Source of the DNA: Cylindrotheca closterium
Taxonomy: Eukaryota > Bacillariophyta > Bacillariophyceae > Bacillariales > Bacillariaceae
Length of the DNA: 64,000 nucleotides
Direction of reading: 5' to 3'
Assembly (NCBI GenBank): GCA_933822405.4
Contig: CAKOGP040000180.1
Span: 1 to 64,000, forward strand
In this document: piece after piece, positions 47,621 to 50,366 of the stretch
How positions within the stretch are numbered: the stretch's first letter is position 1
Layout of the letters: each line of letters starts with the position of its first letter
Position numbers and translations under genes: made by a program
The notes under the pieces: model-generated
What the model was told of the DNA's origin: nothing
What the model saw: the letters and a program-made list of their open reading frames with translations, nothing else
Databases searched by the model: none

Positions 47621-49595
47621 ATGTCCAAGTCCTCGTTCCCTGCAAGAAAGAAAGCCATGGTAAAGAAACGAAAGCCAATCAAGCTTGACAATACCCTCAC
47701 TCGCAATAGTATCTTCGCTCCATCAAGAGAAGCTATGAAGAAAGCTCATGTCACCGAGCCCAGCCACCATGGACCAATGCCAAAAATTTCTGAGCCTAGA
47801 GCTGACATTTCCGCTGTTTCTTCTCATGTTCACTGTACGACGAATCAAAATAGGGGTTGCAATGCACCACTCGTACAGGACGACGGGGCCAGGTCGGCGA
47901 AACGAAAGCCAATCAAGCTTGACAATACCCTCACTCGCAATAGTATCTTCGCTCCATCAAGAGAAGCTATGAAGAAAGCTCATGTCACCGAGCCCAGCCA
48001 CCATGGACCAATGCCAAAAATTTCTGAGCCTAGAGCTGACATTTCCGCTGTTTCTTCTCATGTTCACTGTACGACGAATCAAAATAGGGGTTGCAATGCA
48101 CCACTCGTACAGGACGACGGGGCCAGGTCGGCGAAAAAGATTCGAAAGTCCGCAGGCAGTAGACGCAAGCTTGCAACGATAAGGCGTCATCGAGGATGTG
48201 TAAGGACAGCAACCGGGGATCGGAACCAGTGGACACCGCCCGAGATTTATTCGATCCCAACTGCTAGGAATAGACGTGCTAGAAACAGGTATCAAGCACC
48301 ATTCTGCCACAAGCTTCGCAGGGGAGGAACCTTGAAAGTTTATCCAAATCTGTTATCAGAAGATGAATTGAAAAGTCTTCTGGAGGAAATTTTGAGTTCC
48401 GGTTTTTTTCGCCAGTACAAAGTCCAAGGCCAAGATGAACCAAGACTTCATTATCTTCTCAATGACAAAGCGACTTGTGATGAATTTGCCTTACAACCTG
48501 GGTATAGATACGCGCGAGTAACGACCAAAGCACGGCCGCTGAGCCAATCGCCTCTTTTGGCAAGCCTGTCGAAGAAGCTGGCAGCTGCCAGTGGCATTGA
48601 CAGGTGGAATATCGGCGTAAGTCCTGTCCTGTACCGGGATTCAAAGGATGGCATGGGAGGACACGCGGATAATGATCAGGGAGAAACGTTAATCCTCTGT
48701 CTCGTATTGGCTTCTCCTGATGAAGCAAGACCAGTGGTTATTACTCCAAATCCGAAGGAATCGAAGCTTCAAGATGGTGACGAGAAAATCGAACTAATAC
48801 TGAGGGCCGGAGACGCGTAAGTGAAGCTTGGTTTAAGGCTGGAATTGTTTGGAATATACTCATTTGAAGCATTTTAGTTATGTAATGGATGGCGAAATGC
48901 AGAAATATTACTTGCACTCCGTACCGAAAAGGAATAGGGATGAGGAAGAGCAAGACCATGCCGATAAGCGTCGCATTTCAGTTGTCTTTCGTGCTGGGGA
49001 TGAAGTCTTTGTAAAGCGTGACTCTGGACGACCGTGCAAAAATCTCTCCGCGAAACCCCGCCCGACACAAACTTTTGGCCGTATCAATGAACTCTTTGAA
49101 GGTCATTTATACACTCGATCAAAGTTGTTCAACTTGAATGCCCATAGAGTGCAACAGCGTGGAATCAGTGGAAACAGAAAAACAGGCGCTGACGCCATTA
49201 TTATCAGTGGCCGTCGAAAAGATAACTTTGAACAAGACAACTTTCGGTTCTTGGAGTATGCTGCAGAGGGAAGAATAGGCGCTATAGGGCTGGTCGAAAG
49301 CTACAACAAACGTCTGCCGATCCGAGTTTTTCGGTCAAGCACGTACAGGAGTAGGTACAGAGCTATTCCAAAGTCCATTCACAAGGACAAACGAACAAAG
49401 TACCGATACGACGGCCTGTACAAAATTGTATCCTATACTAAGCCAGTGGTTCAAAAAGGTGCGTTTGTCTTTGAGCTCCACAGGTCGAAAGTTGGCAGCG
49501 ATCCGTATTCAAACCTTATTCGGAACAAGGAAATGTTAGACCTATGTCCAGCACCTGGCAAGAAAAATATTCAGGCCTCGGACAAGACCGTTTAA
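47621..49595 (+). CDS. AlkB-type dioxygenase fused to an SRA/YDG domain
   Basis: Two exons (47621-48816, 48878-49595; 61-bp intron), 637 residues. Order: basic start; two identical 78-residue repeats (about 16-93 and 94-171, basic and disordered); a basic linker; AlkB domain (about 235-437) with Fe ligands H348-x-D350 (GGHADND) and H412 (YLHSVP), plus R431 and R437 in RRISVVFR for 2-oxoglutarate; then an SRA/YDG domain (about 465-601) with FGRINELFEGHLYTR, HRVQQRGISG, GADAIIISG and RYDGLYKI. AlkB enzymes oxidise alkyl groups on bases; SRA domains flip and bind 5-methyl- or 5-hydroxymethylcytosine. The fusion suggests oxidation or repair near modified cytosine in DNA. That role is inference; all expected catalytic residues are present. 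The intron splits the AlkB domain within GDA-YVMDG. Confidence 0.87.
47666..48133. repeat. perfect 234-bp in-frame tandem duplication
   Basis: Two head-to-tail copies (about 47666-47899 and 47900-48133) appear identical base for base, including synonymous positions and the internal out-of-frame ATG. The period of 234 equals 78 codons, so the frame is kept. Identity at all codon positions implies a very recent event, gene conversion, or an assembly duplication. Confidence 0.9.
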
Positions 49596-49838: not shown

Positions 49839-50366
49839 ATGAATCATCCCGAGGACAATAGGCACGATACAGATGATACCGTTTTCGACCCAATATCATT
49901 GTTGGATCACGAGAAAACCAAGAAGCTACTTTTTAGGGAAGAACCAAAAATCGCAAGACTTTCACAGCAGAATGTTCGAATGATTGATACCACAGCTGTG
50001 CTCTTCCTAAAGGATCTGGTCTCGATTACATCTTCAAGAACAACTGAACAATCAGACTGCATCACATTACGAGATTTGCGGTCGGCCATTTCATCGAATG
50101 AATCGCTCCATTTCTTGAAAACTTCTGTGGATTGCTTAAAGGAATCCAACCGCATGGAAACACCTTACCTTCCCACCAAAAAGGCAAAGCGTCATTCCTT
50201 GATAGAGCCGAATAACAAAAAGATCAAGAAAGTAAAATCAGTTTTGGGCAATCACAGAAACGACGAGGAAACAGTCGGTTTTGCAATCGCTGTGTCAGAA
50301 CACAAGAACGCGAGTACTGTTAATCCAACACTCGAGATTGTTCCAGATGACGACGACTATGATTAA
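49839..50366 (+). CDS. histone-fold protein (CHRAC/POLE4/NF-YC-like)
   Basis: Single exon, 175 residues. Residues about 30-105 have the three-helix histone-fold pattern: KKLLFREEPKIARLSQQNVRMIDTTAVLFLKDLVSIT, a short loop then CITLRDLRSAISS, and LHFLKTSVDCL as the last helix. This is closest to the small histone-fold subunits of CHRAC, polymerase epsilon and NF-Y type complexes (the LRDLxxAI segment resembles their YxDLAxAV). A Lys-rich nuclear signal (TKKAKRHS, NKKIKKVK) follows and the protein ends in acidic DDDDYD. It should pair with another histone-fold protein to bind DNA. Which complex is not certain. Confidence 0.62.
   Translation: MNHPEDNRHDTDDTVFDPISLLDHEKTKKLLFREEPKIARLSQQNVRMIDTTAVLFLKDLVSITSSRTTEQSDCITLRDLRSAISSNESLHFLKTSVDCLKESNRMETPYLPTKKAKRHSLIEPNNKKIKKVKSVLGNHRNDEETVGFAIAVSEHKNASTVNPTLEIVPDDDDYD

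Follow-up and report, generated by a model that had tools for sequence, protein, structure and literature searches.

The window analysed here, a 64,000-nucleotide stretch of the diatom Cylindrotheca closterium (contig CAKOGP040000180.1, positions 1 to 64,000), contains a spliced gene whose product joins an AlkB-type 2-oxoglutarate (2OG)/Fe(II) dioxygenase to a C-terminal SRA/YDG domain. We established the fusion itself, the conservation of its catalytic centre and of both folds, and substitutions patterned as under purifying selection; several C5-cytosine methyltransferase-type genes were found in the same genome. The explanation that we tentatively favour, at somewhat less than even confidence, is a dedicated DNA repair enzyme, in which the SRA domain docks on DNA and the ALKBH2/3-type dioxygenase clears nearby N-alkyl damage. 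An original prediction made from the DNA letters had proposed a candidate DNA modification or repair enzyme, and the fusion and the intact catalytic centre support that proposal.

Structure of the AlkB–SRA gene

The locus lies on contig C20 of the 47.6-Mb genome. When positions 47621–48816 and 48878–49595 were spliced, a single frame of 637 amino acids was obtained, which reproduced the predicted reading across a 61-nucleotide GT...AG intron; unspliced exon 2 is a frame of 248 amino acids. The main features are the following.

47621–48816 (+): exon 1; residues 1–398 and two bases of codon 399, with the N-terminal repeats, a conserved beta segment, and the larger part of the AlkB domain
48332–48992 (+): AlkB-type 2OG/Fe(II) dioxygenase domain; residues 238–437, interrupted by the intron
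48662–48685 (+): HADNDQGE; residues 348–355, with the iron ligands H348 and D350; D352 is spaced like Asp135 of E. coli AlkB
48817–48877 (+): intron; 61 nucleotides, GT–AG, phase 2, directly after ...GDA
48878–49595 (+): exon 2; end of the AlkB domain, linker, SRA domain, and stop
49074–49487 (+): SRA/YDG domain; residues 465–602
49209–49259 (+): remodelled SRA pocket by sequence alignment; residues 510–526, GRRKDNFEQDNFRFLEY

The identical splice is annotated in a public C. closterium protein, P0001, which was 100% identical over the searched region and has 625 residues, its start lying 12 residues downstream at the in-frame ATG at 47657. Besides the SRA domain, exon 2 encodes H412, R431, and R437, and since the intron interrupts the AlkB domain, two separate genes would each miss part of the enzyme. 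Indirect RNA evidence comes from a transcript frame of a relative (P0048, from MMETSP), which begins within the AlkB domain, crosses the splice point, and reaches the SRA domain, and thus contradicts two separate genes. Thus, with three catalytic residues supplied by exon 2, both domains present in one predicted protein in 44 of 71 relatives, and P0048 covering both, a mistaken joining of two adjacent genes can practically be dismissed.

An intact catalytic centre and an altered SRA pocket

The Pfam profile 2OG-FeII_Oxy_2 (PF13532) matched residues 238–437 with an E-value of 4.8e-27 and 95.9 bits, as compared with a curated cut-off of 31.2. The HxD...H iron ligands and the RxxxxxR motif correspond to H348, D350, H412, R431, and R437, the very residues that had been predicted as catalytic, and they are kept in relatives. 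The role of Asp135 in E. coli AlkB is taken from PMC8508711. Among solved structures, ALKBH3 gave the best sequence match, and no ALKBH5-like RNA enzyme was found among the solved sequences matched. Tet_JBP was absent among the Pfam matches of the window protein up to E=1. In the predicted structure model, the ALKBH2/3 fold and the SRA fold were both recovered.

The presence of the C-terminal SRA/YDG domain was likewise borne out, as SAD_SRA (PF02182) matched residues 465–602 (E=3.1e-15) above its curated cut-off. The further proposal that this domain flips and binds 5-methylcytosine (5mC) or 5-hydroxymethylcytosine (5hmC) was weakened: the SRA fold and core motif are there, but one aromatic residue and the pocket aspartate are mostly replaced and the finger loop is short.

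The pocket was mapped by sequence alignment rather than from coordinates, and a misalignment of one residue is possible. In UHRF1, the flipped base is surrounded by Asp469 and by Tyr466 and Tyr478, which form an aromatic sandwich. R512 of the window protein aligned with Tyr466, N515 with Asp469, and Y526 with Tyr478; the UHRF1-type 5mC-binding set is therefore incomplete in the window SRA, and the acids D514 and D519 lie nearby. Among 40 relatives, the Tyr466 position is occupied by Arg in 33 and Lys in two, and Asp is found at the Asp469 position in only two. The adjoining Asp468 position holds Asp in 31, the acid at D519 of the window protein is kept in 38, the second pocket tyrosine is retained in 39, and the RYDGLY core keeps its two tyrosines and its glycine in all 40. 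In 38 of the 40, 19 residues separate the second tyrosine from the P(IRV) motif, compared with 52 in UHRF1, 35 in TagI, and 33 in P0068. The NKR finger of UHRF1 corresponds to a gap in all 40 relatives; TagI and P0068 are also without it, so this gap is no test of SRA identity. Since the pocket changes are conserved among relatives, they are likely to be functional. Given the nearby acids, a cytosine-type pocket may have been rebuilt instead of lost.

Relatives, paralogue, and selection

Three protein searches gave 71 distinct relatives; the first and third scored the 7,997 and 7,994 candidates with the most shared words and the second scored 7,481, a procedure that does not set taxonomic limits. 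By precomputed Pfam labels, the AlkB and SRA domains occur together in the 44 mentioned above, several diatoms included, so the predicted architecture recurs beyond the window. The other 27 consist of 23 proteins labelled AlkB only, P0028 labelled SRA only, P0066 and P0067 with neither label, and P0068, a bacterial-type SRA-HNH protein. Among the 23, seven (P0016, P0029–P0032, P0055, and P0059) stop exactly at ...GDA, where the window intron starts, and therefore resemble exon-1 fragments that arose from gene prediction on unspliced DNA. P0028 starts at the expected beginning of exon 2. Environmental sequences made up the majority of the matches. The named sources of both-domain proteins were C. 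closterium, Bacillariaceae sp., Nitzschia sp., Mayamaea pseudoterrestris, and Epithemia clementina, and those of AlkB halves were Cylindrotheca fusiformis and Pseudo-nitzschia multistriata. A taxonomy look-up placed Cylindrotheca, Pseudo-nitzschia, Mayamaea, and Epithemia in Bacillariophyceae, to which Nitzschia and Bacillariaceae also belong.

A viral origin was considered and rejected. When exon 2 was used to scan viral contigs, no relative appeared. The matches of a Foldseek search among viral models were for the most part AlkB/2OG proteins, together with some long polyproteins, and by their descriptions none has both domains.

In a six-frame search of the genome (E≤0.001), PF02182 matched at two places only, the window gene and C308:262300-262707, both of which are AlkB–SRA fusions. 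The C308 paralogue is 57% identical over the searched region, and its intron has the same codon and phase. A FastTree tree was built from the part of the AlkB domain encoded by exon 1 (54 of 60 alignment rows) and rooted at its midpoint. The window gene grouped with P0016 at a support of 0.993, while P0003 and P0005 joined the paralogue (0.974), suggesting that the duplication is older than the split from these three proteins. Across their cores, the two paralogues show changes at 73% of the synonymous sites and at 27% of the nonsynonymous ones (0.77 and 0.26 in the AlkB half, 0.71 and 0.28 in the SRA half). As synonymous sites are saturated (infinite in the AlkB part), the ratio of nonsynonymous to synonymous rates (dN/dS) was dropped and only the contrast of 0.73 to 0.27 is usable; this pattern fits purifying selection on both halves.

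Methyltransferase-type and other AlkB genes

PF00145 gave nine matches at eight places in the genome, with four frames near-complete over the profile and one match containing a stop. These results indicate several C5-cytosine methyltransferase-type genes. The methyltransferase frame at L004 has a CCHC zinc knuckle, that at L010 a tudor-like domain, and the partial frame at L009 a weak chromodomain match below the Pfam cut-off.

PF13532 gave eleven matches at ten loci, two of which are the AlkB–SRA genes. Of the eight SRA-less loci, which include L017 and L022, the other six were compared with solved structures. ALKBH3 was the best match for L014, L015, L016, and L018 and matched the AlkB part of L013; the best match of L020 was a DNA 6-methyladenine demethylase. 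Three of the SRA-less loci carry further domains: at L013 (58–2088 (-), contig C2) AlkB is followed by THUMP and a Trm14-like methyltransferase domain, at L015 (994–2331 (+), contig C223) UPF0029 (IMPACT/YigZ) lies N-terminal to the ALKBH3-like domain, and at L017 (454–3240 (-), contig C90) AlkB is followed by a Methyltransf_11 domain, a layout like that of ALKBH8.

Proposed function and alternative explanations

If the protein is a dedicated repair enzyme, the SRA-type domain would dock it on DNA, where a lineage-specific pocket would probably take up a flipped base, either a modified cytosine or one related to it, and the attached dioxygenase would strip nearby N-alkyl damage by Fe(II)/2OG oxidation. 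The likeliest target would be 3-methylcytosine (3mC), which is toxic, perhaps also 1-methyladenine, and the fusion would bind where methylation is laid down and repair damage at that place. We infer that the substrate is DNA rather than RNA, that the lesion is 3mC, and that the docking site is methylated DNA. The likeness of the AlkB half to the repair enzymes ALKBH3 and ALKBH2 favours N-alkyl repair. According to PMC9246332, 3mC is a by-product of cytosine methyltransferases, and DNMT1/3 co-evolve with ALKB2. Since most of the SRA-less genes compared are ALKBH3-like, other genes probably handle general alkylation repair, and the AlkB–SRA fusion would accordingly have a more specialised task.

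Several points weigh against this explanation. For five of the six SRA-less frames compared, ALKBH3 is the best match of the AlkB part, so these genes may already provide ordinary 3mC repair, and repair handled elsewhere argues against the fusion being the sole 3mC repair enzyme. Some of the methyltransferase frames may act on tRNA (DNMT2 type) instead of DNA. DNMT5 and DNMT6 are prominent in diatoms according to PMC9998398, whereas the co-evolution was reported for DNMT1/3. Finally, the SRA pocket appears non-canonical in the alignment, which makes docking on 5mC uncertain.

A possible but clearly less probable explanation is a non-TET reader and eraser, in which a rebuilt, arginine-containing pocket would read a modified cytosine and the AlkB domain would oxidise that cytosine or a methyltransferase by-product on the spot; a single diatom protein would then link methylation with its erasure or with repair of the damage it causes. 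It is also conceivable, although rather doubtful, that the SRA domain has switched ligand and reads RNA, single-stranded DNA, an oxidised cytosine, or an N-alkyl base, in which case the protein would act away from 5mC. The Arg or Lys at the Tyr466 position (35 of 40 relatives), the rarely kept Asp469 (two), and the short finger loop (38) would agree with such a switch, but the second tyrosine and the core Y, G, and Y are retained, and the acids at the Asp468 and Asp519 positions allow a rebuilt cytosine pocket, or an alignment that is one residue off.

The main functional rival of DNA repair is TET-like oxidation, in which the SRA domain would deliver the dioxygenase to 5mC for conversion to 5hmC, 5-formylcytosine, or 5-carboxylcytosine, giving active demethylation in a lineage that may be without TET/JBP. 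AlkB, ALKBH2, and ALKBH3 reportedly oxidise 5mC in vitro (by the title of Bian and colleagues, 2019, as cited in PMC8508711), which supports this explanation in principle, as do the restriction of the genome's two SRA matches to AlkB fusions and the six HhH-GPD glycosylase-type matches, among which there may be an enzyme able to excise an oxidised cytosine. TET/JBP had no match in the genome in a six-frame, exon-by-exon search, but control genomes were equally blank, so absence is not demonstrated. Moreover, the AlkB half is nearest to repair enzymes and retains an acid at the Asp135 spacing, and the SRA pocket is without part of the usual 5mC-binding set. We therefore consider TET-like oxidation unlikely. 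An RNA demethylase or other regulatory AlkB protein with the SRA domain as a generic nucleic-acid clamp is very improbable, since the SRA partner suggests DNA and ALKBH5-like enzymes were missing from the matched solved sequences.

The N-terminal region and neighbouring sequence

Two further features precede the AlkB domain.

47665–48132 (+): tandem duplication; two perfect in-frame 234-bp copies of 78 amino acids each, in a low-confidence N-terminus
48161–48259 (+): short conserved beta segment; residues 181–213

The beta segment comprises strands within E169–E201 (P0001 numbering), with a predicted local distance difference test score (pLDDT) of 89–97 over the block of residues 171–200. That the 234-bp copies are perfectly identical means that they either arose recently or result from the assembly. 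In P0016, the leading motif of the repeat occurs in three diverged copies at the shorter spacing of 51 and 54 residues; repetition, as judged from these two proteins, is a feature of the lineage of the window gene and P0016, though the repeat unit differs.

In place of the repeats, the paralogue and eight others of the 71 relatives have an N-terminal C-x4-C...W...W-x2-C-x2-C motif (P0002, P0003, P0004, P0005, P0029, P0030, P0031, P0055, and P0059; doubled in P0003), possibly an undescribed zinc-binding domain of diatoms. A known zinc finger was rejected, as no Pfam family above its cut-off covers the motif in the ten proteins scanned (E≤10); below cut-off, YacG overlapped it partly in P0029 (E=0.041), and in P0003 a DUF7128 match touched it (E=2.6). 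P0001 had no match in NCBIfam. In P0024 (Mayamaea), residues 855–988, C-terminal to the SRA domain, form an SGF29-type tudor domain (E=2.3e-21), a type that reads histone marks. The extra parts thus vary between family members and are possibly chromatin-directed.

An open frame of 175 amino acids lies shortly 3' of the AlkB–SRA gene (49839–50366 (+)). Observed/expected CpG, at 0.87 for the whole window and 0.95 for the gene, is uninformative as a sign of methylation.

Comparison with known systems and significance

What is novel is the combination of domains and the remodelled SRA pocket; each half is of a known kind. The window protein shares with ALKBH3 and ALKBH2 the dioxygenase fold, the HxD...H triad, and RxxxxxR, and has its best sequence (ALKBH3) and fold matches there among solved structures, but it is only about 20% identical, is fused to an SRA domain, and has an additional conserved N-terminal segment. 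The SRA half matched TagI best (6ghs, E=9.7e-17) and P0068 at 1.1e-7. TagI and the modification-dependent SRA-HNH restriction enzymes likewise fuse an SRA reader to a DNA-acting enzyme, but those enzymes cut DNA, whereas the partner here is an oxidising enzyme of the repair type. Unlike the SRA domains of UHRF1, SUVH5, and TagI, that of the family has mostly Arg or Lys for the first pocket tyrosine, a shorter finger loop, and a two-residue insertion. TET/JBP belong to the same 2OG/Fe(II) superfamily as AlkB and would be functional analogues if the protein demethylates, although it matches PF13532 and, up to E=1, not Tet_JBP.

No description of an AlkB–SRA fusion was found in titles or abstract beginnings among the matches listed from CC0, CC BY, and CC BY-SA literature, and mention elsewhere is possible. 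In passages of PMC11312118, on RNA erasers including those of C. closterium, 'SRA' denotes the sequence archive and 'YDG' is absent. A paper on diatom DNA methyltransferases (PMC9998398) calls for further investigation of UHRF1-type accessory proteins in diatoms.

The conserved AlkB–SRA fusion is the kind of fusion that would physically connect DNMTs and AlkB repair. We know of no such physical link between DNMTs and AlkB-type repair. Should 5mC be what the enzyme oxidises, it would provide a TET-independent route of active demethylation in an ecologically major group.
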